Positions 19,166 to 63,866 of a stretch of DNA of 64,000 bases are shown one piece after another. The notes below the pieces were generated by a model. The model saw only the letters and a list, made by a program, of their open reading frames with translations, was not told the DNA's origin and ran no database searches. Both the position numbers and the translations under genes were made by a program. The stretch is from the IMG/VR virus record IMGVR_UViG_3300024520_000047, positions 62,001 through 126,000 of that record. One strand, 5' to 3'. The DNA comes from a virus. The number at the start of each line of letters is the position of its first letter. The stretch's first letter is position 1.

Positions 19166-21676
19166 ATGTCCGATAATTTAATGCCACAATATCATTTTGA
19201 TGATTCAAAAGATACTCACCGTATTGGTGTTAAAAAAAACAAATTAACACATCATCGAGACCCCGAAGATAATGTAAAGGAGTTTGAGTTAAATACGGGT
19301 GTACCCGTGGAAAAATACGGTAAAGATGAAAATCGTATAACATACGATAGTGCGTCATATGAAGGAGAACCATGGTTTATTAGTAAATCATTTAATGATG
19401 AGGAAACCAATAAAAGGCCTTTACACCCCACAAAAGATTATTTACACCCTCATGATAGTCACACAGGTGATGACCATTTAGAAATGGGGACTGGTAACTA
19501 CTATCCCCAATATAAAGTGCCTTTTATGGATAATAATAATGTAGATAGTGTAAATTATGATGAGGATGGGAAATTAAAATTAGATAAAAAAATAAATGAA
19601 ACCATTTCACCTTCTGTCAATATTTATAATAAAAATAAAAATAATAATAGTATGAGTAATTTAACTGAACAAATAGATAGAATTAAACAAATGATTCTAT
19701 TCAAAGAAGGCATGAGTTTTAAGGATGTAAAAAACTTAACTGAACAAGAAAAATCCGACTCTACAGCTGTTGCACCATCTTCAGATGGTGGTGATTCAAG
19801 TGTTACTGTAGACAAAGCAGAACCTTCTGTAGGTGCAGCAAAAGCTGCAGAGGTCTCTAAACTAACTAAGTCAGCGGAGAGGGAAAAAACCCCATTAGTA
19901 GAACCCTCTAAGGAAGAGCCTTCTAAGGAAGAACCAAAAGAGGAACCAAAAGAGGAACCAAAAGAGGAACCAAAAGAGGAACCAAAAGAGGAACCAAAAG
20001 AGGAGCCAAAAGAGGAGCCAAAAGAGGAAGAGCCGGTTGAGGAAGCTCCTGAAGAAGCCCCTGCAAACCCAACCACAGTACAATTAACACAACCCATTAT
20101 CGCGACTGTTACAGGCGTAAAAGAAGGTCTAGCATCTATGTTATCTGACCCTGAAGTACAACGAGCCATTAATAATATTAAAAACTTTAAAGCGGACCCA
20201 GAGAAAAAAGCCACCTTATATGATGAATTTATAGCGGCCTCCCGACATTACGGAGAGGTACCAGGTACAATCGGAGTGGACCAAGAAAAAACTGAAGCTT
20301 ATAATGATTATGTTTCAAAATATGTTCCTTATTATGCACTAGCAATACCTGAAGGTCAATTAAGTAGAGCTAACACATTAGACGCTACTATGGAAAATGC
20401 TAATGTAGGGTTGGATAATATTATTGACGCTGGGGTGGGATTAGATTACGCATACACTCTGGGTAAAACAGCAGGTGCTAACGCTTGGATGGCGTATGCT
20501 GCGTTATCACAATTAGTAAATGCTAATATTTACATAGAAAGAGCAAATTATTTAGCTAGTGATGAAGGTCAAGCTGCATTCGAACAAGCAAACACAGATA
20601 ATGTTAATTTTTATGGTACTTACATTACGCCTAATACCCAAGAGTATTGGTTACCTAATGTTTATCCAGAATATTCTACCCTAAGTAGTGATATCGGCAC
20701 TATGGAAAGTAATTTTACCTACACCGCTCCTGAACCTGCTCCATCTGAAGAAGAGGGTCCACGAGGGGAGAAACCTACAGAGGAAGAAGAAGAAGGCCCA
20801 GACAAAGAAGAGAGCCCTAAAGGAGAATCATCTAAATCTATTATTATACCATTTCAGGGTACTAATTATGAATTAAATACTGGTGGTATTTCAAGAGATA
20901 GTAAATTTACAAAAAATGACGCTACAATAAAATCTGGAAAAGAAGGACCAGAATTAACTCTAAATGCAGAACACGCGAAATACGGTAAAGGATATTATAA
21001 TGGTGTAATGAACCCAGATAATAATGTATTTTATGTAACATTTTATAATGATAGAGGTGATGGTCAGAACAAATATAAAATAGAAGCAAAATTAAGTAAA
21101 TATAAAGTTAAGAGTAGACAAAAAGCCCCAGCTAGAACAAGTAAAACAGCTATGAGTCGTGGTTCATATGATTCACCAATGGGTATAGTTGGTACTAGTG
21201 GTAAATTTACCGGTGTAAGTCCAAAAGCCATGGGTCCTTTTAATCAAGACCCATATGCCCAACAATCATCCAACGCTGAAGAAGAAGGTGATGACGAATC
21301 TAAAAAGAAAGAAAATTTAGCAGAAAGACGATTACCTAGAGGATATTATAAAAATAGAAAACCTAAAGTTATGAAAAGACCTAAACAATTAACAGAAGCA
21401 CCAATTAGAAAATCTAAAGGAAAAAAAATTATTAAACTTAGAGAATCAGATTTATATCGGATTGTAGAAAGAGTTCTTAATGAAAATAAAAAAGGTAAAG
21501 GATGTGCAGAATCTGAAGGTGGTTCTGGATGTATCAAAAAAGGAAGTTATACAGATAAATCTGGTAAGAAATATACTTGGCATATCTTAAATAATAAAAA
21601 AGGTGGTATCTGGAGAGGTTGTACTAGTAGAAAAGATTGTGAAGAAATATTAGATGCCTTCCACGCTAACTCTTAA
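19166..21676 (+). CDS. 836-aa mosaic protein with helical tag motifs, probably virion-internal
   Basis: Segments in order: residues 1-150, a polar His/Asp-rich N-terminal domain; a low-complexity NKNKNNN linker; an internal Met163 followed by MSNLTEQIDRIKQMILFKEG; a Ser/Ala/Glu region; a KEEP repeat (about 256-287); an Ala/Tyr-rich helical domain (about 305-510); a second acidic linker; a beta-rich domain (about 550-650); the motif SRGSYDSPMGIVG; the helical motif IKLRESDLYRIVERVLNE (about 756-773); and a C-terminal domain ending in DCEEILDAFHANS. No enzyme motif found. The tags recur in other proteins here, pointing to a shared targeting signal. It is divergent from the 177-aa gene. The Met163 region resembles a former gene start, so the protein may be a fusion or have two products. 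Confidence 0.55.
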   Translation: MSDNLMPQYHFDDSKDTHRIGVKKNKLTHHRDPEDNVKEFELNTGVPVEKYGKDENRITYDSASYEGEPWFISKSFNDEETNKRPLHPTKDYLHPHDSHTGDDHLEMGTGNYYPQYKVPFMDNNNVDSVNYDEDGKLKLDKKINETISPSVNIYNKNKNNNSMSNLTEQIDRIKQMILFKEGMSFKDVKNLTEQEKSDSTAVAPSSDGGDSSVTVDKAEPSVGAAKAAEVSKLTKSAEREKTPLVEPSKEEPSKEEPKEEPKEEPKEEPKEEPKEEPKEEPKEEPKEEEPVEEAPEEAPANPTTVQLTQPIIATVTGVKEGLASMLSDPEVQRAINNIKNFKADPEKKATLYDEFIAASRHYGEVPGTIGVDQEKTEAYNDYVSKYVPYYALAIPEGQLSRANTLDATMENANVGLDNIIDAGVGLDYAYTLGKTAGANAWMAYAALSQLVNANIYIERANYLASDEGQAAFEQANTDNVNFYGTYITPNTQEYWLPNVYPEYSTLSSDIGTMESNFTYTAPEPAPSEEEGPRGEKPTEEEEEGPDKEESPKGESSKSIIIPFQGTNYELNTGGISRDSKFTKNDATIKSGKEGPELTLNAEHAKYGKGYYNGVMNPDNNVFYVTFYNDRGDGQNKYKIEAKLSKYKVKSRQKAPARTSKTAMSRGSYDSPMGIVGTSGKFTGVSPKAMGPFNQDPYAQQSSNAEEEGDDESKKKENLAERRLPRGYYKNRKPKVMKRPKQLTEAPIRKSKGKKIIKLRESDLYRIVERVLNENKKGKGCAESEGGSGCIKKGSYTDKSGKKYTWHILNNKKGGIWRGCTSRKDCEEILDAFHANS
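19931..20026. repeat. 12-bp tandem repeat encoding Glu-Glu-Pro-Lys
   Basis: Eight tandem copies of GA(A/G)CCAAAAGAG, the first six identical and the last two with one change (GAG for GAA). It codes for a stretch of about eight Lys-Glu-Glu-Pro units. The near identity suggests recent expansion by slippage and possible length variation among relatives. The strand opposite is open but codes only for a Phe/Gly/Ser mirror of the repeat. Confidence 0.9.
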
Positions 21677-27887: not shown

Positions 27888-28484
27888 TTACCATAATTCG
27901 TTTTGTAACATATGTCCTCGCACGCAAGTATATGCGTCAGCCATATCAAAACATTCTTTTTTTAAATTTCCTTTGGGGGTGAGGGGAGGCCAAATAATGT
28001 GGGGTTCTAATATTTTTACTTGTTCCCATACAGCTAATTTTTTATCGGTGTCTTTAGGAAAACCACCAAATAAGACTTTTTTACCTTTGTCATTATAACT
28101 GTATAACGCGGGATGTGCATATTTTCTAGAATTATAGGTTGATATGAATGTGGGTATAACCCCTAGAATGTCGTATACGGTTTTTACAATCATTGAGTTG
28201 TATCTTAATAAAGCACCTACCGTATATAGATTATTAGATGTTAATAAGGGTTCTTCAATTATAACTTTAACTACCCCGAGACCTTTTAATTCTTCTAATT
28301 TTTTTTCAAAAGCTTCTGCTTTTTTTAAATGTTCTTCTATTTTATCTTCAGGTCTAGGATTAACGCGTGGGGAAAAATGGGTCAATTCCAATAACTTTTG
28401 ACTCTTTAAACCAAAAAGGGCCCATCCAATTGTTTTTGTAGAAATGTCTAACCCTAATACTTTGGGTTCGTTTTTTAATGCCAT
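27888..28484 (-). CDS. RuvC-like Holliday junction resolvase
   Basis: 198 aa. RNase H-fold features: KVLGLDISTKTIGWALFG with catalytic D13, VVKVIIEEPLL with E77/E78, and the C-terminal KECFDMADAYTC with D180 and D183. These four acidic residues are the RuvC-family metal site. The enzyme would cut four-way junctions and branched DNA before packaging, replacing T4 gp49 (endonuclease VII), which is unrelated in fold. The first base of its ATG overlaps the last base of the tail gene stop at 28484, so it is the first replication gene after the virion block. Confidence 0.85.
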   Translation of the reverse strand: MALKNEPKVLGLDISTKTIGWALFGLKSQKLLELTHFSPRVNPRPEDKIEEHLKKAEAFEKKLEELKGLGVVKVIIEEPLLTSNNLYTVGALLRYNSMIVKTVYDILGVIPTFISTYNSRKYAHPALYSYNDKGKKVLFGGFPKDTDKKLAVWEQVKILEPHIIWPPLTPKGNLKKECFDMADAYTCVRGHMLQNELW

Positions 28485-29611
28485 TAAAATCTGAATTTTA
28501 AATTAAAATATGATGAATTTGCCTTATATTTTTCAATTGGCCTATCTGGTTTTGCAATTGCTAACATGTCACCATTATCATCATACAACCCAATCGCTGT
28601 AATGTAAACAGGTTTGTTTACACTTCCTAGGTCATACTCCCCATTTGTGATTATGGGGTTCAAGGGTGCAGCGGTAGGATTTTTGGTTAAATAAAATTCA
28701 TTTCCACTTGCAGTACATAAGACATCAAGTACCCATTGTTTCTCAAAACTATAGAATGTTACTTGTGCATCACTACTACTAAATGAAGCCTGGGTTATGG
28801 CACTATATACGTATGTGGTACCTGTACATCCAGTGCCCGCAGGTATACATGTAGCGGCCGTCGATGCAGACCAATTAATATTTTGTGTTACAGCAGAACT
28901 AGTTAATACTATAAAACCCTTATCTAAATAACATACACCGATAGGTCTATCTACTCCACTGCCCGCATCTGTTGCGGTTGCTACCTGCTTATCTTGTGCA
29001 AAACTAAAATAGGTTGTAGAGTCGGGATACCCAGCTGGAGGTGAGGTAGTTGTATACCCATCAGACCATGATGTTGTTGGATTAGTAACAGGTCTACCAA
29101 AACCGTCTGCAAATAAAAAAGATACATTAGTACTTGGTGTGTCAACAGCAGGTGTTAGATTTTGATTTAAAACTGATGGATGTCCAAATCTTTCAGCTTC
29201 TACACTAGGGTCACTAGAAGCATCCCAAGGTAAATAATAAGAACTATAACAGTCAAAAGTACCACCAGTCACATGTGGTAATGTTAATTTAATTGTCCTA
29301 CCGTCTATTAATTCACCGTAGGTATTTTTAGGTATTTCTATTACTACCACATTAGTGGCGTCATCTATATCCTGTAATGCATTTGCACCCCATTCTAAAT
29401 CCCAACCATTAACTTCAAAATTAGCTGCAGGTAATCCAAACGAAGAATATAAATTAGAGAATGGTCTTCCATTATTTGGGTTACGTTGAGCGACTGTGAA
29501 TTTAAGTGCTGACCCAGTAACTTCGTTATACCCATTAAAATTAGGGTTTAATGTCCCAAACGGTATAATTTCTGACTCAACTGTCTTTGATGTTATTGGT
29601 TTAAAATCCAT
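28484..29611 (-). CDS. Tail / baseplate-associated virion protein
   Basis: 375 aa, rich in Thr, Ser, Asn and Tyr. The last 45 residues, with PVYITAIGLYDDNGDMLAIA then KPDRPIEKY and a final LKFRF, closely match the C-terminus of the 818-aa virion protein at 34995 (ITEIGLFDNDKDLMAIAKLK ... IKIDF). A shared end-domain of this kind suggests a common docking function on the baseplate or fibres. No enzyme motif. The stop overlaps the RuvC start. Confidence 0.65.
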   Translation of the reverse strand: MDFKPITSKTVESEIIPFGTLNPNFNGYNEVTGSALKFTVAQRNPNNGRPFSNLYSSFGLPAANFEVNGWDLEWGANALQDIDDATNVVVIEIPKNTYGELIDGRTIKLTLPHVTGGTFDCYSSYYLPWDASSDPSVEAERFGHPSVLNQNLTPAVDTPSTNVSFLFADGFGRPVTNPTTSWSDGYTTTSPPAGYPDSTTYFSFAQDKQVATATDAGSGVDRPIGVCYLDKGFIVLTSSAVTQNINWSASTAATCIPAGTGCTGTTYVYSAITQASFSSSDAQVTFYSFEKQWVLDVLCTASGNEFYLTKNPTAAPLNPIITNGEYDLGSVNKPVYITAIGLYDDNGDMLAIAKPDRPIEKYKANSSYFNLKFRF

Positions 29612-29638
29612 TTTTAAATATTTTTTATTTTTTTATTA

Positions 29639-30025
29639 TTAAGGTATTAATTCGTTACCACTAAGTTTAAGAAACTGTACACCAGAAAAAAAGAATTTTA
29701 CATAAGCACGTGCATCGATTACCTGATTACTTCCACTATCCTTACTATAGTTAATGGCTTGAGGTGAATAAACAAATAGGTTTACACCTTCTTTAGTGGT
29801 ATCTCTAACTGGGTTAATGGTTGAAATAAATTTAGTAGACACTAATGTAGTCGTTGCGTTCTCCCCCGGAGTATGTTTATCTGTTGCTGGTATACGTGCA
29901 CTTTGAGATATAGAATTATCTACATAATTAATTGCACTTTTATATGGTACACCCGACATCCCATTAGGGGTAAACCCAAAATTAGCTTTAAAGTAATTTA
30001 TTCTTGTTGTTGTATCACTTGCCAT
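29639..30025 (-). CDS. Small virion protein
   Basis: 128 aa from ATG 30025 (MASDTTTRINYFKANFGFTP). A longer frame opens at 30064 but would overlap the upstream gene by 38 nt; 30025 leaves a 1-nt gap and is preferred. The sequence is beta-rich and polar (NLFVYSPQAINY; AYVKFFFSGVQFLKLSG). No family recognised. Its place between two tail genes suggests a tail or baseplate component. Confidence 0.55.
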   Translation of the reverse strand: MASDTTTRINYFKANFGFTPNGMSGVPYKSAINYVDNSISQSARIPATDKHTPGENATTTLVSTKFISTINPVRDTTKEGVNLFVYSPQAINYSKDSGSNQVIDARAYVKFFFSGVQFLKLSGNELIP

Positions 30026-30026
30026 T

Positions 30027-31691
30027 TTATACTGATTTAAATTCAATAAAAGTTTTATATCCAACTACCCCTGTTGTAACAAAGTCTGTCGGATTTGTTG
30101 TGTATTCAGACATAGTTGTGTACCCACCCCCATAAAATCTTGCTTCGGTCTGACTGGTATCTAACGCTCTATAAAGAATAGGTGAGGTATCTCGTGTAAA
30201 ATTCTCGTACAAAGCCGGAAAACTTAAAATAAAGTTAAGTGTTAGGGTTGCATTAATTGTGGATGTGTCTGAAGCATCCGCAACTTGTAAATTAAAAGGA
30301 ACCGTATAAATTTTATTAATTCCTGTTCCAGAAACACTAACAAAATTAACAAATTCACTTTCTAATGCAGTAAAGAATTTTTCTATTTCATATAATAATG
30401 TGGTTACCCCCATTTTAGGTTCTAAATTATTATTAACAGGATTAGGTATACTTTTAAATGTAGAAATAAAATTAGTTATCCCGGGTTGTTTTTCATATTG
30501 TGGGGTGCCCGCCATAAACATACCAAATGTTTCCCATGCAGATGTTGATTCTGTTGCAGAACGACCATCAAGATTACCAGACATAGATTTAAATAAGGTT
30601 GCGGTAGTGGGTGTTACATTAATTTGGTTTGTCTGTAAAATATAATACGCGTTAGTGTCGGGATTATTATCCAATATATATCTAGCTGTAGGGATTACAG
30701 TATCTAAATTAGTAGCATTATTAAACTGAGTTTGTACTGGTGAACCAGCCGTTTGTGCTTGGTATATGTTATAAAAACCACCCGTATCTGCGTTAAACCC
30801 ATACTGGGGGTAATATACCACATTGGGTTGTAAAATTGAAGCAAATGTATAACCAAAATCAATTGCTCCACTAATATCTATCCCTAAAGCACCTGCACCC
30901 GCAAATTTACCACCATTCACTTCATATAAACTATTAGTCATAGAGAATGGTGAAGAAAATTTAATCGCTTGAGTTGAGACCCCGAGTTGTGGGCCATCAC
31001 CAATTACTTCTTGTTGATTGCTATTCATATAAACAGCACCAAAGAATCTCTTAAATAAAGTTTCACTATTATTACCTACTAATTTTATTTTAGTCTGGGT
31101 GGGTGCGAGTGAACCTCCGGTTTTCTTAAATATTCTATGTACAACATTTAAATTCGTGTCCTTACCTTGTTCTTCTAATGTCTCAAAAAATTCTTTCATA
31201 TTTAATGACCAAGCTGCCCCACTCCCATCAAAAATAGCATTAAAATAATCAGTAAATTGACTCATATTTAAACCACCAAATTCGTGATGATTGGCATTAT
31301 ATAAAGCTAATACTTTAAACATAGCTAAATAATCGTGTAAATATACATTTACTGTAGCTTTATTTGTCCAAGTATAGTTTCCATATTCTTTATACCCCAA
31401 CATCATTTGACTAGTCTGTGTAAGTAAATCAGAAGCTCCTTCTATGTAGGTAATTTTATCTTTTATATCATATCCGTCATTAACGCCAAAAATACAATTT
31501 AAATGACTGCCTGTAACTCCAGGTACGAACCCACTACTTAAATTTTGACTATTTCTGTAGTCTTTATCGCTGTCTCCTAAAGCAAATTTAACAATTTGGT
31601 CGGCTAAACTACCTTGCAATAGAAATTTTCTCCCTCTTTCTGTGACGTGAAGGTCTAAATATTCTGTTGTTGCACTTGTAACGTATCCCAT
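30027..31691 (-). CDS. Tail/baseplate protein of the 'TDxGR-LGD' N-terminal family
   Basis: 554 aa. The N-terminal segment YLDLHVTERGRKFLLQGSLA followed by VKFALGDSDKDY is shared with the proteins at 31755 and 34995 (consensus L-x-V-x-(V/L)-T-(D/E)-x-G-(R/K)-K-x-L ... F-x-LGD-x-D). The rest is a large polar domain with Asn/Gly loops (FGGLNMSQFTDYFNAIFDGS). I believe this N-terminal domain is common in tail or baseplate proteins of T4-like phages from Bacteroidota and marine samples. It probably anchors each paralogue to the same site on the tail. Confidence 0.65.
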   Translation of the reverse strand: MGYVTSATTEYLDLHVTERGRKFLLQGSLADQIVKFALGDSDKDYRNSQNLSSGFVPGVTGSHLNCIFGVNDGYDIKDKITYIEGASDLLTQTSQMMLGYKEYGNYTWTNKATVNVYLHDYLAMFKVLALYNANHHEFGGLNMSQFTDYFNAIFDGSGAAWSLNMKEFFETLEEQGKDTNLNVVHRIFKKTGGSLAPTQTKIKLVGNNSETLFKRFFGAVYMNSNQQEVIGDGPQLGVSTQAIKFSSPFSMTNSLYEVNGGKFAGAGALGIDISGAIDFGYTFASILQPNVVYYPQYGFNADTGGFYNIYQAQTAGSPVQTQFNNATNLDTVIPTARYILDNNPDTNAYYILQTNQINVTPTTATLFKSMSGNLDGRSATESTSAWETFGMFMAGTPQYEKQPGITNFISTFKSIPNPVNNNLEPKMGVTTLLYEIEKFFTALESEFVNFVSVSGTGINKIYTVPFNLQVADASDTSTINATLTLNFILSFPALYENFTRDTSPILYRALDTSQTEARFYGGGYTTMSEYTTNPTDFVTTGVVGYKTFIEFKSV

Positions 31692-31754
31692 TTTTTCTTT
31701 TCTATTATATAATTATCTTAACTTTTATTTCCGAATAGTAAATCATTCTACATT

Positions 31755-34700
31755 TTAAGCTAATCTCGTATATTGATACCCATATTTCGGTGTACCAGTG
31801 ATTTTATATCTATGTGTTTCAAAAAACATAAGATTATGAACTGACATAGCTAGTCCAATACATAAAATATAAGTATCCATACCATTATCAGTAATTTTAA
31901 ATTCGTCTCCCAGATTTGAATGTGCTCGTGCATAGGACGTACTACCACCAATATACTTTGGTTTATTACTATTTACTTTAATTTTAGTTAAAGGTACACA
32001 TGGTTGGGTTACTTTAATAGACCCACTAGTTTTATAACCACTTTCTATTACCCAATAAAAACTCCCACCATTAGCTTCTGTTATTCTATTATGCCCATAT
32101 TGTCCTACAGAATATAATTCTAAATCAAATTCAGTATCTCCATTTTTATTTAAATAATTATGAAAAATTACATCATAGCCAATACTATATTTATTTGTGT
32201 ATCGTGAAGAAAAAGAATTAGTGTCTCGTGCTGGTTCTAAACTCATTAAGTTAGCGTTGGGTGAATTAAGTCCACTCATTAAAGGAGATGTTTCGTCAGG
32301 AACTTCATATGTTTGGTGTCTGCTCAATCTTTGTGAACTAGTCCCATCCTCCCCAATGGGTGGGTCACCACTAATTAGTATAGATGTAGATAGGGGTGCA
32401 GGACCACATAATGCCTCACCGGTTGGTGTGGTGCTAGTACAACATTCGGGACTATAAGTTCCATCTGGACATAAACACCCAGCATTAGGGTCTGGAGTAA
32501 TTAAAACAGGTCCTTTTATGTCTAAAAATACTGAAGGCAAACATTGGCATTCAGTACATCCAGTTGTAAGTACCATTGATAATGAAGTGCTGCCACTTAA
32601 AAACTCATCTAAATCCGCTGCAAAAGTACCACCAGAAAATATATCTCCTATATTTGTACACCTATCTAATGCCCCCGCCAATGGAGGTGTCGGTAATGTA
32701 CACCCAACGGTTGGATTAAAATCCCATCCCCAATTCCTCAATCCTCTTACAGTATTTAATCCTGTTTGTGCTGCTCCAACATCTATTTGGCTATTTACCC
32801 CATAAGTTGCACTATACCAATCATTCCACCCTAAAGAACTTCCCAATTGTGATGGGTCAAAAGGCTCTGTTGCTGAACCTGGTTCATATAATACGGTGGG
32901 ATTATAATTTACAGCAGTAATAGCACTATATGGATTTGAATGGGTTATTGCTGATAATGTACCTAATTGAGATATCACTGTTGGATTATCTCCCTTTGCG
33001 TTAAATGTTGCTTCTGAAATGGTATTACCATACATAGCACCATACAAATGTAAAGGAAATGCTTGTACCGATGAATTTTGACTACCGACTACAGGATAAA
33101 CAAAACCTCTAAATGCATTATAAAAAGAATAGGTTTTATGAAATAAGTCTTGGCTATATAACCATGAAGGTGTGGGTTGTGGATTTTTAGCTGTATCATT
33201 AAAATAATCAGCGTCAAACCCCATACTATTATTATTACAACACGCCCATTGATTCCAATCATCCGCTATGCCATAAGGGGGATAGTGAGCTTGATTTCCA
33301 GTAGCCTCTGCCCCACATGTGGTATATCTATTCCCACAGGGTCCCCCCCTATTTCCACCATGATACCCTAAATTTTGATTAAGTCTCCAAGTTATATCAT
33401 TGGGGTTAGTTCCTTGCATTAGACCATTATAAAAATTTAATAGTCCAAGAGTTGTAGTTTGTGTTTGAAGTGGCGTGGGATTTGTTAAATCATACCAAAC
33501 CTTATTTCCTAATGCACAAAATCCACCATTAGAGAATCTTGGTTGTGCCTCTGATTCATCAAATATATTAACAATCATAACATTGCGGTCCATACCTCTA
33601 TATTTTTCGCAAGGAACATTTATATGATTAACCCTAATAGTACATGTTCCCGCTGAAATACCGGGACTTAATTCGATATATGGTCCGAGAAAACTATCTG
33701 CACGGACACCCTCCACTCTACCTTCAGTTATGGTATTATCAAATGGACTACAATCTTGACATCCAAATAAGCCAGGTCCCTCATAACCCACATCAGGGCA
33801 ACAATTACCTTCACATAAGTTAAAGACTTCCCCCCCATTTAAATTAAGACCAGAACTTAGGGGTGGTGTCCCAGGCCACGCTGCTGCCACAGATTCCGCA
33901 GTATATCCACTTAAATACGTTTCTCCTGAAAATACATTTGGGTCAAATGTCATACCAGGAGTTAACGTATTGGCAGTAAAAGTTATGCCCGTGTATTCTA
34001 CAATACCTGAACTATAGGAAATAGAACCACCACCCACACCTAAAGTGTTAAAAGTACAACCTGTGGTCCAAAACTCCGCTCTACCTCCAGTTGCTGTAGA
34101 AATAGCATTTGGTGGCAGTACTGGAAACCCCGTATAGTCTCCAGTTCTTACCCCTCTACCATCCGCTTGTAAATATAATCCAGTAACTGGTTCTGGATAT
34201 TTAAGGGTAGGAGGTTCATCCATACCGTTTAAGTTGATGGATGGTGGTGTAAAAGTGCCTCCGTAACCATAAGTCGTATTAGTACACTCATTGCCTGTTG
34301 AATAGGTGGTAACTAGATTTTGGTCTGCGCCACAAAATGTTATTCTTGTACTATGGTTATTATTAGGACCATTTGCTGCCCAATCCCACGAATCCAATTT
34401 ACCATTCCAAGGATAATAAGATGTATTGAGCCACGCTTCACCATATACTGGTATGTGGAATATCTTTCCGGTGTAATTGGGTGTACTAGCCGTAACCCCA
34501 GCAAACCATTCGGTTAATCCATCTTTTGCTGCCTGAGCGTTATCAATACCCGTCGAGCTAACATCATAAAAACAATATACATTAGTACACGATAAAATTG
34601 TGGCGGTGGTCGCAGTAGTTAAAATACAATTAATTAATTTCTGACCTCTATGTCCTCTAACATCAGGCATATCGAACCAACAATTACCACTTAATGAACC

Positions 34701-34985
34701 ATTTTCTGGTCTACAATCATTGTTGGGTGGACCTAAACCATCATCATTAATCAATCCCTGTGTGGTCCCATATACTGGGTCTAATGGGTACCCTGATGGT
34801 ACTGGTGATATACCGTCAACCCAAACTGAGCTGGTACGTCTATAATCATAATCTCGGTCATCTAATGAAAATTGACTTACTAGGTCGAAGAGTCCTTTAG
34901 AGTTTTCTCTAAGCATTAACTCCTTTCCTTTGTCAGTTAAGAAAAGTTCTAGGGTATGTAATTTATCTAGTTCTAGAAACCCCAT
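31755..34985 (-). CDS. Large virion adhesin-like protein with VWA-like domain
   Basis: 1076 aa. Begins with the same family domain (LELFLTDKGKELMLRENSKG, then LVSQFSLDDRDYDY, residues 12-48). From about 118 comes a Rossmann-like strand with a MIDAS-like phrase VYCFYDVSSTGIDNAQAAKD (D141), then TGKIFHIPVYGEAWLN, and further on FVYPVVGSQ and AFPLHLYGAMYGNT. These phrases recur in the 3101-aa protein. Cys-rich turns (CCPDVGYEGPGLFGCQDC; CLCPDGTYSPECC) divide the rest. The C-terminal region is beta-rich. VWA domains bind proteins through a metal ion, so host-surface or inter-subunit binding is a fair inference. Gene order and size fit a baseplate or fibre protein. Confidence 0.6.
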   Translation of the reverse strand: MGFLELDKLHTLELFLTDKGKELMLRENSKGLFDLVSQFSLDDRDYDYRRTSSVWVDGISPVPSGYPLDPVYGTTQGLINDDGLGPPNNDCRPENGSLSGNCWFDMPDVRGHRGQKLINCILTTATTATILSCTNVYCFYDVSSTGIDNAQAAKDGLTEWFAGVTASTPNYTGKIFHIPVYGEAWLNTSYYPWNGKLDSWDWAANGPNNNHSTRITFCGADQNLVTTYSTGNECTNTTYGYGGTFTPPSINLNGMDEPPTLKYPEPVTGLYLQADGRGVRTGDYTGFPVLPPNAISTATGGRAEFWTTGCTFNTLGVGGGSISYSSGIVEYTGITFTANTLTPGMTFDPNVFSGETYLSGYTAESVAAAWPGTPPLSSGLNLNGGEVFNLCEGNCCPDVGYEGPGLFGCQDCSPFDNTITEGRVEGVRADSFLGPYIELSPGISAGTCTIRVNHINVPCEKYRGMDRNVMIVNIFDESEAQPRFSNGGFCALGNKVWYDLTNPTPLQTQTTTLGLLNFYNGLMQGTNPNDITWRLNQNLGYHGGNRGGPCGNRYTTCGAEATGNQAHYPPYGIADDWNQWACCNNNSMGFDADYFNDTAKNPQPTPSWLYSQDLFHKTYSFYNAFRGFVYPVVGSQNSSVQAFPLHLYGAMYGNTISEATFNAKGDNPTVISQLGTLSAITHSNPYSAITAVNYNPTVLYEPGSATEPFDPSQLGSSLGWNDWYSATYGVNSQIDVGAAQTGLNTVRGLRNWGWDFNPTVGCTLPTPPLAGALDRCTNIGDIFSGGTFAADLDEFLSGSTSLSMVLTTGCTECQCLPSVFLDIKGPVLITPDPNAGCLCPDGTYSPECCTSTTPTGEALCGPAPLSTSILISGDPPIGEDGTSSQRLSRHQTYEVPDETSPLMSGLNSPNANLMSLEPARDTNSFSSRYTNKYSIGYDVIFHNYLNKNGDTEFDLELYSVGQYGHNRITEANGGSFYWVIESGYKTSGSIKVTQPCVPLTKIKVNSNKPKYIGGSTSYARAHSNLGDEFKITDNGMDTYILCIGLAMSVHNLMFFETHRYKITGTPKYGYQYTRLA

Positions 34986-34994
34986 ATATCTATA

Positions 34995-37451
34995 TTAAAA
35001 ATCAATTTTTATAGACCAAGTCTGGGTACCAACTCTTTTAGTGGGATTTTTAAGTTTTGCAATAGCCATTAAGTCTTTATCGTTATCAAAAAGACCAATT
35101 TCTGTTATACGAACAGCGTCACCTGTTGTCCATGTTGGATTAAGAGAAGTATTAAATTGGTTTTTAGCCAATGTAATATCATATCTCATTTCGTAAATAG
35201 TTGCCATTATATCCGTATTTAAACTACCATAAAAGAAATATTCATCACCAAACTGTAAATTAGTTGGTTCTTGGCTATTATTTAATGGGATATTAATATA
35301 ATCATGTAAATTATAGGTTGAAGCACTTATAACAGTATCGTTAGTTAAATAAAATGGACAATTTGATATTAACTCAGAACCGTCAATCGGGGTACCGCCA
35401 CTTGTATATGTCGGTATTTGAGATGTTATGTCTAAAATTTGCCATTGGGCTGGGTCTGGTGGAACACCGTAAGAAGTCTTTTGGAAAATAATATTAAATT
35501 TATCCACTTGGACACCTGAGCCACTATATGGTAAACATAAGGAATTATTATACGCTCTAATATAAGGAAATTCCGAACCAAAATTCATTACAATGTCTCT
35601 ATTACCCGCGGATGTATCACCAATAATTTTATTATAGTAATTACAGTGAAGGCCTGATGTATGGCCAGAACTACTCTCCAACATGTAGGTTAACCAAACC
35701 TGTTCCATATTAGGTAACCCATTAAAGAAACCTAATGAACTATTATTAGTGTCACATCCAGTTCCTGCGGGAATTAATTCAAGTTTTGGCATTGGTAATG
35801 TCCAATTTCTATTTGATTTATAACTCAACGCAGCAACCAATTCTTGGTCATCTATTACTATTATTTGTAAATCTGGGAATACTTTACCGACTCTATTTGG
35901 TATTGAGGTGGAACCAGTAATTGTCGCTACATTATCATCCCACAAATGGAAATACCTAATACCGGGATAATTCATATCAGCATTTGGTGTAGATTCTATA
36001 TATTGGGGGTCTGAAATGTTAGCAAAACCAGGTGGGCTCACATAAAATGTTTGACCTAATGTACATTCATCTCCAGCTCCAGTTCCTGTTCCACTCCCAT
36101 CATTACCACCTTTTTTCTTATGCCACATCAAGGTTGGTAGATGTAATTTAAAATTTTGTTCTTCACCAACGGCGTTAGAAGCTCCTTGTCCTGTAGGTTC
36201 TAATGCAAATTTCTCACCATAAAAATTAGAAATAGTTTCATTACTATAATGTAGTATAGCAATACATCTTTGTTCTGATGGTAATATGGTTCTTATTTTT
36301 CCAAATGAATCTCTTATGTATGTTCCAGAACTTTGTGGAAGATATCCGGGTATAGGGGGGGTGGCTTGCCCATAAAAATCATTTACATTTGTGGTGTCGA
36401 ATTGTCCACTATCACTATTATACCCAAGCCATTCTTTAGTACCACAATAACCACTAGAGCCATAATCGTTTACTGTCTCAAACAAAGCCGTATTTACTCC
36501 TGCAACCGTACCCCAATTTAAAGTAGTGTTACTAGTTTCATATAATTGTGTCCAATTAATATTCATATTCCACACATTCACATCCGCTACTGAAACATCA
36601 CAATTATTATCGAAAGATAATGAACCTGGTGACCAATATGGTATGGGTGTATCTTCTCCATAAAAATTAAGGATTCCGCCTGAAGGATATATAATCACAT
36701 GTGAACATCCTGAATTAGCGGGGAACATACTATAATCTGGTAAAGTGCGGTCTACAGGTACTCTAATAGTAGTTTCAGTATTAGCACTAGCAATGATAGT
36801 ACCTCCAGTCATATCTGTAACACCAGATGTAACGGTATAAAATAAATAAGGCACTGGATTATTTTGTGGGATATTAAGAAGGTCTGTTCCACAATTTGGA
36901 ACAGTGGTTTGGTATGGATTTATATACTGTACCATTAATATATCCCCCACTACTGGAGTATAATCAATACTATTACATGTCCCACTCATTAAAACCATTT
37001 CACTCCCACCTGTCATACTCGTAAGTGGATAACACCAATTGGGTGATAAAGCGTATTCCGCACTAGTAAAAGCAGAGTAAGGGATTGTGGTGTCCCCACT
37101 AAAAAACCCTCTTTGTCTTGCAGTATTATAAACTGTATTTTCTGAATGCATATCAGTTAAAACAGCATAAGTTTGACCACTATCTGCCCCAATAGGGATG
37201 GGGTATTTGACTTGCATTTTATTTCTTTCTCTTGCTTGGTTAGCAATATTTTGTGCATTCCATTTTGGTTCTGTAACGAAAATGCCGTTAGAGTTTGTTA
37301 AAACATCAGTGTAACAATTATAACACATTTCACTATCTCCTAACTGAAATAGGCTTAATGTTAATTGACCTTTAGATAGTTTTTTTCTGCCGGCATCGGT
37401 TACTCTCACATTTATTAAACCACTGCTTGCTGTTTTTAATATATAACTCAT
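34995..37451 (-). CDS. Large tail/baseplate virion protein with shared N- and C-terminal modules
   Basis: 818 aa. Combines both shared modules: N-terminal GLINVRVTDAGRKKLSKGQL followed by FQLGDSEMCYNCY (residues 11-42), and C-terminal VRITEIGLFDNDKDLMAIAK (about 780-800) ending in WSIKIDF. The middle is a mosaic of beta-rich segments with paired Cys. It thus links the protein with only the N-terminal module (30027) and the one with only the C-terminal module (28484), which suggests module exchange. A TATTTATA box lies 17 nt before the ATG. Function inferred as tail-fibre attachment or the fibre itself. Confidence 0.65.
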   Translation of the reverse strand: MSYILKTASSGLINVRVTDAGRKKLSKGQLTLSLFQLGDSEMCYNCYTDVLTNSNGIFVTEPKWNAQNIANQARERNKMQVKYPIPIGADSGQTYAVLTDMHSENTVYNTARQRGFFSGDTTIPYSAFTSAEYALSPNWCYPLTSMTGGSEMVLMSGTCNSIDYTPVVGDILMVQYINPYQTTVPNCGTDLLNIPQNNPVPYLFYTVTSGVTDMTGGTIIASANTETTIRVPVDRTLPDYSMFPANSGCSHVIIYPSGGILNFYGEDTPIPYWSPGSLSFDNNCDVSVADVNVWNMNINWTQLYETSNTTLNWGTVAGVNTALFETVNDYGSSGYCGTKEWLGYNSDSGQFDTTNVNDFYGQATPPIPGYLPQSSGTYIRDSFGKIRTILPSEQRCIAILHYSNETISNFYGEKFALEPTGQGASNAVGEEQNFKLHLPTLMWHKKKGGNDGSGTGTGAGDECTLGQTFYVSPPGFANISDPQYIESTPNADMNYPGIRYFHLWDDNVATITGSTSIPNRVGKVFPDLQIIVIDDQELVAALSYKSNRNWTLPMPKLELIPAGTGCDTNNSSLGFFNGLPNMEQVWLTYMLESSSGHTSGLHCNYYNKIIGDTSAGNRDIVMNFGSEFPYIRAYNNSLCLPYSGSGVQVDKFNIIFQKTSYGVPPDPAQWQILDITSQIPTYTSGGTPIDGSELISNCPFYLTNDTVISASTYNLHDYINIPLNNSQEPTNLQFGDEYFFYGSLNTDIMATIYEMRYDITLAKNQFNTSLNPTWTTGDAVRITEIGLFDNDKDLMAIAKLKNPTKRVGTQTWSIKIDF

Positions 37452-44200: not shown

Positions 44201-47200
44201 TGCTATTACTTAGTTTTTCAAGATAAAATTTATTTCTATCTGAGGACATACTTTGAATTTGAAAACTTAGTGTGGTTGTTTCTTCAAACAAAGTTTTTAG
44301 TGTTGTTGAAAAACCGGCATAAGAGGTGTCAGATGTATCTATGATTGTATTTGTTTGGACATCTGGTATGTGAAGAAAATACCTTACTGCTGGATTATTG
44401 GTGGGGTCGGATATATCTCTATATTCCCATCTATAAAATTCTATTTGTGTACTATCAGTAATATTTAACTCATATTTTACCCTTCCTTCAAATATAAATA
44501 ATTTATTTTGTTGGCGATATCTATCAAAATATATAACCATCTCATCTGCCAAACAACAAGGGTTTAATATTGCTTTAGACCACTCAAGAGACTTTGCTTC
44601 ATTAGTTATGGCCCAAAATGTATCATCGGTACCTGTAGTCCACCAATTAGGTGGTGAGGTTTGTCCCGCATCTTCATTCATTTTGAAACCTTGTATATGT
44701 GCAGGAACATCATTAACACTAATTAAATAAAAATCTAACTCTACATTTTGTAATATAGAATTGCCTTCACCACTATAATCTGTTTCTTGGCATTCACAAA
44801 CCGCAACGGGGTCTTCACCCGGTGAAGGGGAATCTGGATTACATGCGTCTTCAGTGTCGTTGGTTACTACTACTATTTCTTCCGCCACACATTCCACCCA
44901 ACATTTTGAGTGTCCACCATCACATAAACTTAATGGAAATTGTGTGGTACCACAGTTATTAATGTTTGTCATTGTAAACGCATGACCCGCTAATAATGTA
45001 TTTTCTGGACAACATACCGTATCCCCTTCTTGATAGAAAATGCCAGCGTTCTCTCTACTCCAAACATTATTCCCAGTGCACGCACATGGGTCAACCATTT
45101 CCTCACAAATTTTGTATGTGGACTCAAAACAGTCTTGCCCTCCTACATTAAAAATACCATCTTTAAATGTTACTGGGTCTACAGTATAGGTAAATCCTGT
45201 AGGTATTGGGTTTTCTGGTATAACTATTTCCTGATATGGGTCACAATTATCACCTTCTGTAAAATTATTTCCACCTAAGAATGGTATACCACCGGGTTCA
45301 ATATCTACTGGTTGCCACCCACATGGTGGAGGCCAACAAGGTGGACCTGCAGGTGGTCCGGGTGGACCCCCCGGAGTAGGACCAGTAGTGGATGGTGGAG
45401 TTTCTTCTGGGTCTGGGTTGTAATTATCAGGATTACCATCAGTACCACTTTCACCACTAACCCATTCATAGAAATTACCATTTTGAACTATTATATCTCC
45501 AAACTCATACGTATCATTTATGTTCCATAGTGGTGCTGTAAATTCTTCATTTCCACAAACTCTTATACAAATATCACAGTTTACTAATGAAAGTGTACTG
45601 TTACCTTCTAAGAAAATAGCTAAGTCTTGTTGGAATTGTTGTTCAAAAAATAAAGCTGTGTCGGTACATACATTACGTGCCTGTGCAGTACACGTATTAC
45701 AAATATTAGTAACACAATTTGGGGTGCCATTACATCTATGACATCTTTGGTTTATACATGGATTAGGTGAAAAATTTGTGGGACAATCAGGACTAAAACA
45801 ATTTGGGTCGGTACAGTCCCCACACAGTGTTGTACATCCAGATACACCTAAATCATATTTTGCTCCCCATCCAAAATTATTAAGTCCAGAACCGACATAA
45901 CCACTCATTGTATTTGTAGCGGTTAATGCGGTATATGGGTTATGTAAGGTTATTGCTGTTAACGTTCCGCCAACTGTTGTTACAGTGGGATTTTCAATTA
46001 ATTGTGATGGGTCTACAGTCCCAGAAAACATTGCACCATAAACATGTAATGGAAACATCATTGTCTCATTCTGGTCTTGGTGTACAATGGGATACATAAA
46101 CGAATTAAATGTTGTGTATGATGCATGTGCAGAAGTAAAAGCACTGAAATCCTCAGAATATGGTGGAGTGGGTTGTATTACTGCGGTTGTTGTATTAATA
46201 AGTGGTGAGTTCCAATCATCCATTGGATTGTAAGGTAACCCTTGGGCGAGCTCCCACGCGGGTGGTGACCCCGTTTTGTCATTTGCCTCACATTGTGCCC
46301 CCGGGTCGAATGTCCCACCCCTACTTCCGTGGTAAGCGTTAACCACAGCCCCCGAAGATTCAACAACAAATGTAAACATTAAAACATTGGTAGATAAATT
46401 AGGTGGAAATGTATAAAATCCACCACTAACACCGGTCCCACCAACACAACTACCAACACTTGTTCCAGTATATGTGGTACCACTTGGTAAATTAGAAAAA
46501 TTATTTTGGGAGCCATATAATGTATTTTGCCAATTACAACATGTCGGAGTGTCAAAGGTCCCACCTGATATCGGAATAGTTGCCCATCTCAACCACCTTT
46601 CATCAGCTAAGGGTATGTGGTAAACATTACCTGTAAAACCAGATAAAGAAGTTGCCCAAGTGTTTATGCTATCTCTGGTTGCTAGAGCTGTATCAAATGG
46701 GTTTGATGATGTATCATAAAAAGCGTATATATCTGTATCTAGAGGAACTGGGGTTACTTGTACATTTGTTACATTTAAACAAATTTCTGACGTAAAATAA
46801 TGTGGGTCAACACCGTTATCTGAATTCCACGCGTCATTTCCAGCTGGATACGTAACACATTCTGTTGGTACAGTACGAATACACGAATCGGTACATAAAT
46901 CGTAGGTGTATCCAGAGGGGCATGTGTTGGTTTCGGTATTAAATATACCACCTACCTCATCTAAACTAGAAAAGATGGTGTTGGCTGTATATGCACTCAC
47001 CCCTGCGGGCGTAGCAAATATATCAAAATCTGTGTTTACAGTAAAAGTACCTACAGGGAATGGTCCAACTATTTCACAACCAAAAGACGCTGGACCAAAT
47101 GCTGTCGCGTTTGCACCTTCTAATAAGAGTGTATTACTTCCAGCATTTAAGGTAACGGGCCAAACCCACCAATAATTAAAATTTTGAAGAGCCCCAGCTG

Positions 47201-61552: not shown

Positions 61553-63406
61553 TTACGAAATAGTAGTTTGAGTAGTAGTTTTAATTCTTACCGCGATGTC
61601 TTTGGTTGGAAATTTAACTTGAAATGACTGGTCTGGTTGTGCAAATATTATCCCGTCTATCAATTCAATTTGTTTTGTAGCTTCGTCTAAGTACCGTTGG
61701 GATACCTCATTACTAGAATATTGTCCACCAACCTTATTAAAAATTCGTAAGTCTATTAAATTAACAACCCCATCTTGTAATGATATATTTCTACTCAATT
61801 CCCCAATATAGACATCTTGACCCATTTCCTTATTATCAGGTGAAAAGAAATCGTTTACAGTGTCAATTATATTTGTCACTAACTCTCCTTGATTAAATGA
61901 TGGCTCAACTACAATATCAACATCTATTGATAAATCAATTACTTGTGCAGGTTGGGTAACGATATAATCGTTTAACATCCTATAATCAGATAAATATTCG
62001 GCAATATTCTTCATTAGTGTGGTACTAACTTTTGAAGTTAAACTCCCATCACTCGCATATGATAACAAATTTACTAAAATTTTATTCTCTTCTTCTATTA
62101 TTCCTGTTTTTGCTGGTGCACCAAAAATCCCCGGCATTCCGTTTATTAAAGACCGGTAATCACTTACGGTTACTGCTCTTTTTTGTGCTGAAAAATTAAA
62201 TCCAATATAATTTCTTATTTCTTCTATGGTGGGTTGATTTGCACCACCAACAGCGGCGGTCACATTATTGACATTAAGTGAATCTAAAACAGATGTGTTT
62301 ATATTTGAATTGGGCCCATTAATTACAAAATCTATAGTGCCAAAGCTATTTATAGTATTGGGTCCAATATTTGTAGCTTTTCCCCCACCAACTCTATATT
62401 GAATAAAAAGAGTGGTATTTGCTCTGGGTGTAGTACCTAAAGAGATATTATTCATATACCTACTTAAATCCATATTAAACCCTTGTTGGGTAAAATCACT
62501 TAAACTATCTTGTGCACTATTGGTACCACCACCCAATGTTAAAAAGAAAAATCCTTCTGGTGTATATTCAGTTATAAACCGTTGGTCTACAGTTTCCCAT
62601 TTTCCCACTTTTACGCCAGGCATATCGGATTGTTTAGTACTATCTATGGTGAATACCTTATCTTGTGCTAAGGCATCTACCTCATACCATTTATTTTGTG
62701 AGGTTAAAAATTCTGTGGATTTGGGAATTGCTTGGGTTGTTGTACCATCTTTTTGTATTATTGCACTCACACCAAGTATGTTTTTCTCAGGTAAAAATAT
62801 TTTTAAAAATGGCATTACATCTGTCTCAGTAATTGGTTTTCTAAATACTTTTGTTACACCATTAACAACAACTTCTCGTTTGGTTATATTATAACTAACT
62901 ATCGTACCATTAGAATTAAAGTTAGGTATCTTAGTTCGGTTAGGAAATCCAGTGGCGTCATATGGTGTGGAAAAATCTACATCATATATATTTTCAAAAA
63001 CTTGACCCGCTCCCATTGCTTGTGAACCACGCCTCAACGTTCCTAAATACCTGACATCTTCTTTATCCCCACCACCAGTAACTTGTGCGACTGGTACGGT
63101 AATAGTAAAATCACAAACCGAGACAGATGGTCTATTAGATGGTATTTTTAATCCATAAGTTCTAGCTATATTAAAAAGAGAAGACTTTTGATTTGCATAA
63201 TCTAATACTGTTTCTTGTAAACTTCTATCTATATGATAATGTAAATTATCTGCTACAGCAGCATTTAAATCAAGAAAAACAGAAAAAATGGATGCATCGT
63301 TTGCATTTTGTATTAAATCGGGATATTGTTGTTGGACATAATTTAAAAGTTCACTTCTAATACCAACAAAATCTCTTTCAGTGTAGGATATCTTATTATT
63401 TGCCAT
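61553..63406 (-). CDS. 6: Baseplate wedge protein, T4 gp6-like
   Basis: 617 aa, similar to T4 gp6 (about 660). N-terminus: YTERDFVGIRSELLNYVQQQ, then YPDLIQNANDASIFSVFLDL and AAVADNLHYHIDRSLQE, the signature start of gp6/J-like proteins. The central part has YRVGGGKATNIGPNTINSFG. The C-terminal wedge domain has FNFSAQKRAVTVSDYRSLIN, PGIFGAPAKTGIIEEENKIL and DYRMLNDYIVTQPAQVIDLS, all typical of the family. gp6 dimers join the wedges in the baseplate ring around the hub. It directly follows gp25 (1-nt gap), the order usual in contractile systems. Confidence 0.9.
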   Translation of the reverse strand: MANNKISYTERDFVGIRSELLNYVQQQYPDLIQNANDASIFSVFLDLNAAVADNLHYHIDRSLQETVLDYANQKSSLFNIARTYGLKIPSNRPSVSVCDFTITVPVAQVTGGGDKEDVRYLGTLRRGSQAMGAGQVFENIYDVDFSTPYDATGFPNRTKIPNFNSNGTIVSYNITKREVVVNGVTKVFRKPITETDVMPFLKIFLPEKNILGVSAIIQKDGTTTQAIPKSTEFLTSQNKWYEVDALAQDKVFTIDSTKQSDMPGVKVGKWETVDQRFITEYTPEGFFFLTLGGGTNSAQDSLSDFTQQGFNMDLSRYMNNISLGTTPRANTTLFIQYRVGGGKATNIGPNTINSFGTIDFVINGPNSNINTSVLDSLNVNNVTAAVGGANQPTIEEIRNYIGFNFSAQKRAVTVSDYRSLINGMPGIFGAPAKTGIIEEENKILVNLLSYASDGSLTSKVSTTLMKNIAEYLSDYRMLNDYIVTQPAQVIDLSIDVDIVVEPSFNQGELVTNIIDTVNDFFSPDNKEMGQDVYIGELSRNISLQDGVVNLIDLRIFNKVGGQYSSNEVSQRYLDEATKQIELIDGIIFAQPDQSFQVKFPTKDIAVRIKTTTQTTIS

Positions 63407-63407
63407 A

Positions 63408-63866
63408 TTATATATTAATTATCACAAAATCCTTAGTTTCGAAGGCATTATTACTAATAGTATAACTAATTTTAACTTTAGCTGTATTTTCTTTAGTTCC
63501 TTGTCCAGCAATTCTATATACTCTAGGGTCATTATCACTCACAATAGTTCCTGGTGTCTCTTCAGCTTCTAAAGCGGGTTCAACAACAACAGAATTTATG
63601 GTGAGGTTTGGTATATATTTTGTTACTTGTTCTCTTATTTCACCTTCTATGGAATCAAATGTTGGAGAATCTAACGGTTCGAAAATATACTCATACAATC
63701 TAGTTCCAAAATCTGGTAAATAATATCTGCTTCCCTTTCTAGTTAATAAAAGATGAATTAAATCAGCTTTAATTTCTTCTTCTGCATTATCTGTTAATTT
63801 CAAATAATCACCGACATCACTGTCTTGAAATGGGAAATCTATTCCATATGTTCCAAATTCAGGCAT
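63408..63866 (-). CDS. 25: Baseplate wedge protein, gp25 / GPW family
   Basis: 152 aa (T4 gp25 132). The family core is plain: NAEEEIKADLIHLLLTRKGS followed by RYYLPDFGTRLYEYIFEPLD (about 46-65), and EIREQVTKYIPNLTINSVVV. The C-terminal strand region has a Pro/Asp-rich insertion (about 105-130, ETPGTIVSDNDPRVY). gp25 nucleates sheath polymerisation at the baseplate in contractile tails, type VI secretion and related machines. A TATTTATA box lies 12 nt before the ATG. Confidence 0.95.
   Translation of the reverse strand: MPEFGTYGIDFPFQDSDVGDYLKLTDNAEEEIKADLIHLLLTRKGSRYYLPDFGTRLYEYIFEPLDSPTFDSIEGEIREQVTKYIPNLTINSVVVEPALEAEETPGTIVSDNDPRVYRIAGQGTKENTAKVKISYTISNNAFETKDFVIINI

Follow-up and report, generated by a model that had tools for sequence, protein, structure and literature searches.

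Tail-docking domains are usually pictured as uninterrupted segments with which a fibre begins. In gpH of phage P2, whose N-terminal domain is represented by the Pfam family PF12571 (Phage_tail_fib), the two halves of this domain are about 40 residues apart on one chain. We analyzed a cluster of five genes, A to E, within a 64,000-nucleotide stretch of viral DNA (hereafter the window), which comprises bases 62001-126000 of the 245,874-base virus record IMGVR_UViG_3300024520_000047 from IMG/VR. Two conserved ends, an N-end and a C-end, recur among the products of this cluster and match the halves of the gpH domain in the same order; here, however, the halves are about 730 residues apart in A or lie on two proteins, C and E. 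The layout of PF12571, with both halves within a single N-terminal fibre stretch of about 150 residues, was not found in A, C, or E. We consider it fairly probable that the ends form a gpH-like docking domain, which A closes in cis and which C and E are predicted to complete in trans. The domain would be of a known kind in a new, split arrangement; among the titles listed in literature searches for a split tail-docking domain, none fits. The genes and their conserved parts are located in the window as follows, where one-chain E denotes an approximately 400-residue homolog found in relatives.

34995..37451, minus strand: gene A, 818 aa, with both N-end and C-end; its docking domain is presumed to close in cis
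37317..37451, minus strand: N-end of A, residues 1-45 (profile comparison)
34998..35123, minus strand: C-end of A, residues 777-818 (profile comparison)
31755..34985, minus strand: gene B, 1076 aa, with N-end only; C-end not found in B by profile search
34836..34985, minus strand: N-end of B, residues 1-50 (profile comparison)
30027..31691, minus strand: gene C, 554 aa (C554), with N-end only; its start corresponds to the N-half of one-chain E (profile comparison)
31428..31691, minus strand: residues 1-88 of C, homologous to residues 1-89 of one-chain E (probability 98.0, E-value 2.9e-13)
29639..30025, minus strand: gene D, between C and E; start probably ATG 30025, not the listed TTG 30064
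28484..29611, minus strand: gene E, 375 aa (E375), with C-end only; corresponds to the rest of one-chain E (profile comparison)
28490..29605, minus strand: residues 3-374 of E, homologous to residues 91-399 of one-chain E (probability 100, E-value 4e-69)
28487..28618, minus strand: C-end of E, residues 332-375 (profile comparison)

A first-pass annotation of the window had described an N-terminal module common to A, B, and C and a C-terminal module common to A and E, with the 818-aa A carrying both. The present analysis bears this out: the five genes are present on the minus strand at the coordinates assigned to them, and profile-profile comparison delimited an N-end of approximately 45 residues and a C-end of approximately 42 residues. 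The N-end of C matched those of A (44 columns, probability 91.9, E-value 7e-7) and B (47 columns, probability 95.7, E-value 1e-8). Between the N-ends of A and B, sets of 15 and 13 sequences gave a weak match (probability 1.8, the best match still being in register, 1-46 versus 1-50), which became clear with larger sequence sets (probability 83.1, E-value 9e-6). For the C-end, residues 777-818 of A matched residues 332-375 of E (probability 95.4, E-value 1.7e-8). A search of the whole record with both end profiles at E-values up to 10 recovered three N-ends (A, B, and C) and two C-ends (A and E), and found no further N-ends or C-ends in its 245,874 bases, a record that is possibly incomplete.

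Both types of ends correspond to parts of the P2 gpH attachment domain. The gpH profile was built from 11 P2 gpH-type fibre starts, with 80 P2-like loci left out as near-copies. The pooled N-ends matched residues 7-46 of gpH (probability 79.6, score 30.6, versus a mean of 10.6 and a maximum of 15.3 in 30 column shuffles), and the pooled C-ends matched residues 86-109 (probability 96.1, score 49.4, versus a shuffle maximum of 15.2). The scores are thus approximately 2-fold and 3-fold, respectively, those of the best of the 30 column shuffles, and a reversed gpH control gave no match to the pooled ends. Taken singly, A and one-chain E each show both gpH matches in the right order, the N-half being weak in both (probabilities 11 and 20). 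In A, residues 16-41 weakly matched gpH 8-39 (probability 11.1, E-value 0.003) and residues 781-809 matched gpH 88-119 (probability 75.7); in E, residues 333-362 matched gpH 85-113 (probability 91.6). Weak matches were also obtained for the C-end of A among PHROGs tail fibres (E-value 0.039) and for A to PF12571 in Pfam (E-value 0.17). The best PF12571 score in the whole record was 13.7 bits, below the family cut-off of 23 bits, and we do not claim membership. On this basis the N-end and C-end would together make up a single small tail-docking domain of the P2 gpH N-terminal kind, each contributing one half. In A, with a half at each chain end and the body looped out between them, the domain would close on itself and anchor the body to the baseplate.

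The equivalence of C and E with a single protein was established from relatives. In uncultured phages, 66 distinct E proteins of approximately 400 residues bear both ends. The first 89 residues of this one-chain E correspond to residues 1-88 of C554, and residues 91-399 to residues 3-374 of E375, with a junction near residue 90. For contrast, the match between C and A is confined to the end of approximately 45 residues. What the first-pass annotation described as shared modules on separate genes is thus, for C and E, a single protein divided in two. The loci that encode the two-ended E of approximately 400 residues showed no separate N-only gene. Counting loci by distinct protein sets rather than contigs, so that a differently cut contig may count twice, we found 62 one-chain loci with two genes, each bearing both ends, and 43 two-chain loci, including the window, with one both-ended gene, two N-end genes, and one C-end gene. 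A further 15 loci showed other compositions (C-NC in 9, NC-N-N in 3, N in 2, and N-C in 1) and are mostly cut contigs or truncated frames. Profile scans for these relatives drew on the best 80 of 92 matches for E, 37 for A, and the best 80 of 176 for one-chain E, many of them on the same contigs; a separate, non-profile scan with A yielded 15 loci and one with C a single locus. The frames of loci L250, L268, L289, and L290 are truncated: L268 and L289 are misfiled as C-only E (31 distinct members without them, 33 with), and L250 and L290 are misfiled in a 600-residue class (10 without them, 12 with).

The two-chain loci fall into two lineages. In 33 of the 43, the C gene is long and is separated from E by 410-523 bases, a gap that is filled by gene D in the inspected loci L002-L013. 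In the window, D probably starts at ATG 30025, which immediately follows the stop codon of C, and not at the listed TTG 30064, which overlaps C; the start of its orthologs in L002-L013 agrees with this ATG. The other 10 loci carry an N-only gene of just 80-88 residues, located 2-11 bases before the C-only gene and matching one-chain E over 77 columns. The N-half stops at a similar point in both lineages, at residue 83-89 of one-chain E. In one-chain E the docking domain would be closed in cis, as in A. In the window C554 would supply the N-half at its own start and E375 the C-half at its own end, and the domain is most likely completed between these two proteins.

The division of one protein into two may also be neutral, arising from a gene fission (or, for the one-chain form, a neutral fusion), after which the N-half protein took on another role. 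The approximately 465 residues of C554 past residue 88 have no counterpart in one-chain E, and gene D sits between C and E, both of which would fit such a history. Both the one-chain and the split forms, however, retain the hallmark residues of the ends, and in the second split lineage a bare 80-88-residue N-half persists beside its C-half. We therefore regard a neutral origin of this kind as quite unlikely. In a tree of the E core (made by a quick method and with long branches, the misfiled frames of L250, L268, L289, and L290 being absent), the joined form and the two split forms each came out as one group, and a single clade of the two split forms was not rejected (approximately unbiased test, p-AU 0.475). 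If the ancestor was split, two fusions would account for A and one-chain E, which is about as parsimonious as a joined ancestor that underwent fissions, and either direction may apply.

A structure model supports the folding of the two ends of the one-chain form as one domain. The AlphaFold2 (AF2) model of the one-chain E of locus L187, made from 74 alignment rows, had a mean predicted local distance difference test (pLDDT) score of 83.1 and a predicted template modelling (pTM) score of 0.68. Each of the ten best entries in VIA-align (Z 6.2-9.7) was a tail, baseplate, or neck protein of a tailed virus, with an alignment that ran from residues 6-25 to residues 396-400. They included the tail of the haloarchaeal virus HFTV1 (Z 9.7, 119 residues) and a 107-residue neck protein, of which 96 residues aligned (Z 6.9). 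The model also aligned across both ends with Listeria phage A511 gp105 (PDB 6hhk; Z 8.0, 112 residues), another of the ten, and with an arm segment of phi812 (9fko; Z 7.7, 116 residues), single short chains that lack the large looped-out body of one-chain E. Both are baseplate wedge proteins, and A511 gp105 holds receptor-binding proteins (PMC11406892). These two Z values are well above those of the lower rows, although a Z near 8 may reflect a common arrangement. The lower rows, from Z 4.5 down, covered mostly residues ~105-330 and placed T4 gp6 and other baseplate chains on the middle of the protein; two listed ones also span both ends (Z 2.2-2.4). From these ranges we infer that both ends form a docking domain apart from a body domain, in qualified terms since VIA-align gives only the first and last aligned residues. 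In a library of viral models, ten matched one-chain E at E-values below 0.001, and the weaker matches of approximately 70 columns (E-value 0.04 and up) included several tail-collar fibre proteins. Searches of PDB sequences with gpH (E-value up to 1), the E family (up to 5), and the C-end profile (up to 10) yielded no match, and those with the N-end profile yielded matches at chance level alone (E-value 0.13 and worse). By eye, gp105 (gene at L299 19025-19546) shows the gpH pattern, with an 'AIG' turn, a proline-rich 'TGL.E', and then 'VGVF'; the profile comparison gave an E-value of 0.03 and a probability of 1.7.

Split forms were also observed in named phages, of which RM378, Mel-JY01, and immuto are cultured. 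Rhodothermus phage RM378, Microcystis phage Mel-JY01, Flavobacterium phage immuto, and LR756508 encode N-only and C-only proteins on separate neighbouring genes. They resemble the window in the split form and in having the same N-end and C-end, but their proteins are hypothetical or unannotated, the numbers of halves are different, and the bodies are very diverged. Direct tblastn searches of 50,697 phage records with A, C, and E found nothing at E-values up to 0.01. The one-chain E of L187 gave weak matches to Mel-JY01 (2e-4), LR756508 (5e-3), and RM378 (1e-2), and immuto was reached with Mel-JY01 proteins as queries. The genes with these ends in three of the phages are located as follows.

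L292 11761-14342: RM378 p127-p129
L293 10097-17917: Mel-JY01 genes with ends
L294 12001-14757: immuto genes with ends

The immuto halves have baseplate wedge genes on one side and, just after them on the other, genes with tail fibre and tail spike annotations. At E-values up to 0.01, the numbers of N-ends and C-ends were 2/1 in RM378, 1/5 in Mel-JY01, and 1/2 in both immuto and LR756508. These four were among 21 further records searched at this threshold, of which 8 were of the split kind with three N-ends and two C-ends, and 9 were of the joined kind with two of each.

Several results count against a docking domain shared by the two ends. Family by family, the N-half matched gpH only weakly (probability 11 for A, 15-20 for C, and 20 for one-chain E), the N-end of gene B taken singly did not match the gpH profile, and the value of 79.6 was reached by the pooled N-ends only. 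Neither A (12.3 bits) nor the best of 24 one-chain E proteins (14.5 bits) reached the 23-bit PF12571 cut-off. The packing of the ends in the one-chain E model was read from aligned ranges alone, the AF2 model of A was of low confidence (mean pLDDT 39.9, 15 rows), a Foldseek search of the one-chain E model against PDB found nothing at E-values up to 0.001, and gp105, as one sequence, showed no detectable similarity to either end profile or to one-chain E. Relative to the rest of E, the C-end was not enriched in couplings with the N-part, with 2 among the top 20 (4.1 expected; effective number of sequences, Meff, 67), 1 among the top 10 (2.0 expected), and 10 among the top 100 (20.5 expected), and thus give no support. 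An excess of coupling in the true pairing over 20 within-family permutations was set aside as confounded by shared ancestry; it proves nothing because permutation also breaks that ancestry. The halves are unequal in number (3/2 in the window, 1/5 in Mel-JY01), and therefore strict 1:1 pairing cannot be general. The N-end of gene B has no obvious partner.

The unequal numbers (3/2, 2/1, 1/5, and 1/2), the unpartnered N-end of B, and the absent coupling signal would be expected if the N-end and C-end were independent small elements, each with its own baseplate site or a part in oligomer assembly and forming no joint domain when split; their occurrence on one chain in some relatives would then be a convenience of co-expression. 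Such independence fits less well with the match of both pooled ends, in order, to the single gpH domain, with the alignment of the one-chain model to short single proteins across both ends, and with the similar stopping point of the N-half in two lineages, and we consider it a real but minor possibility. For the gpH-like docking domain, profile comparison establishes the shared ends, the ordered gpH match, and the one-chain/two-chain equivalence with its junction near residue 90, and docking to the baseplate and the pairing of C with E in trans are predictions. Tentatively, and with a good deal of doubt, we extend these to a mix-and-match socket, in which one N-half protein would partner a number of C-half proteins that differ in their bodies. 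Each pairing would complete the docking domain in trans, and a single type of baseplate site could in this way carry different arms or fibres. Mel-JY01, with one N-half and five C-halves, would be the extreme case, and RM378 and the window, with spare N-halves, would be the reverse.

The shared ends had first been interpreted as a cassette system, in which recombination swaps interchangeable receptor-contact domains between conserved docking ends. The docking part of this interpretation is plausible from sequence, as the ends match halves of the gpH attachment domain and the genes cluster downstream of baseplate wedge genes. The cassette part was not supported by comparison with relatives: gene order is fixed, the middles are orthologous, and the ends group by gene and not by genome. 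The order both-N-N-C was found in all 43 two-chain loci with distinct protein sets. Identity of the orthologs to the window proteins was 42-76% in 14 relatives for A, 44-76% in 11 for E, and 22-63% in 12 for C. A tree of 77 sampled N-ends separated eight gene groups with 7 changes, the minimum possible, although no single branch set C apart by itself (2 changes). The corresponding tree of 59 C-ends separated six groups with the minimum of 5 changes once the misfiled L250 was removed (6 with it), and window-kind E by itself needed 2 changes; both trees rest on few columns. The claim that everything between the ends differs holds for the middles of B and C alone, since A and E are remote homologs over 271-310 columns, approximately 300 residues: the C-terminal part of window-type A matched most of E (271 columns, probability 98.3, E-value 1.7e-14), as did the 710-residue A of relatives (310 columns, probability 99.9, E-value 1.7e-32). 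Beyond the ends, all matches of the B and C middles to A or E had probabilities below 1. The ends common to B and C despite unrelated middles, and the recurrence of an insert of gene B described below, are what favors swapping between conserved ends. For A, C, and E, such exchange is already contradicted by the order, the middles, the end trees, and the A/E homology, and as an account of this family we consider it highly unlikely.

The insert of gene B (32550-34589, residues ~133-812) is homologous to and collinear with 45912-46736, which encodes residues 1261-1535 of a 3101-aa gene product, with 38% identity over 126 columns (E-value 1e-14) and 28% over 123 columns (E-value 9e-9). It was matched at E-values up to 1e-4 in 10 of the 33 distinct B proteins, those of 1005-1145 aa, and at this threshold was not matched in the B protein of L006 (425 aa), two of 778-781 aa, and 20 short forms of 258-337 aa. 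This insert is the sole exchange-like event seen, and it lies away from A, C, and E. A Pfam search with gene B gave no match, and phrog_37948 (virion protein) matched its residues 124-186.

If a docking domain is indeed divided and closed in trans, several fibres could make use of one socket half, with implications for the way in which large phages accommodate their many receptor-binding parts. The comparison provides a first guess at the function of the 'hypothetical proteins' of RM378, Mel-JY01, and immuto, and the predicted partner pairs are C554 with E375 and, in a cultured phage, immuto_163 with immuto_164.

Judged from its T4-type major capsid (Gp23, E-value 8e-65) and portal (Portal_T4, E-value 2e-81) genes, both above cut-off, the virus is a large T4-like tailed phage of bacteria. 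The A-E cluster lies on the minus strand downstream of the baseplate wedge genes and is followed by RuvC-like, primase, and SbcC-like genes.

61553..63866, minus strand: gp6-type and gp25-type baseplate wedge genes (phrog_6, E-value 4e-19; phrog_261, E-value 4e-19)

Elsewhere in the window, an 836-aa gene (19166-21676), which had no match in PHROGs at E-values up to 0.01, contains a run of EEPK-type repeats and lies on the plus strand among neighbours that are mostly on the minus strand.

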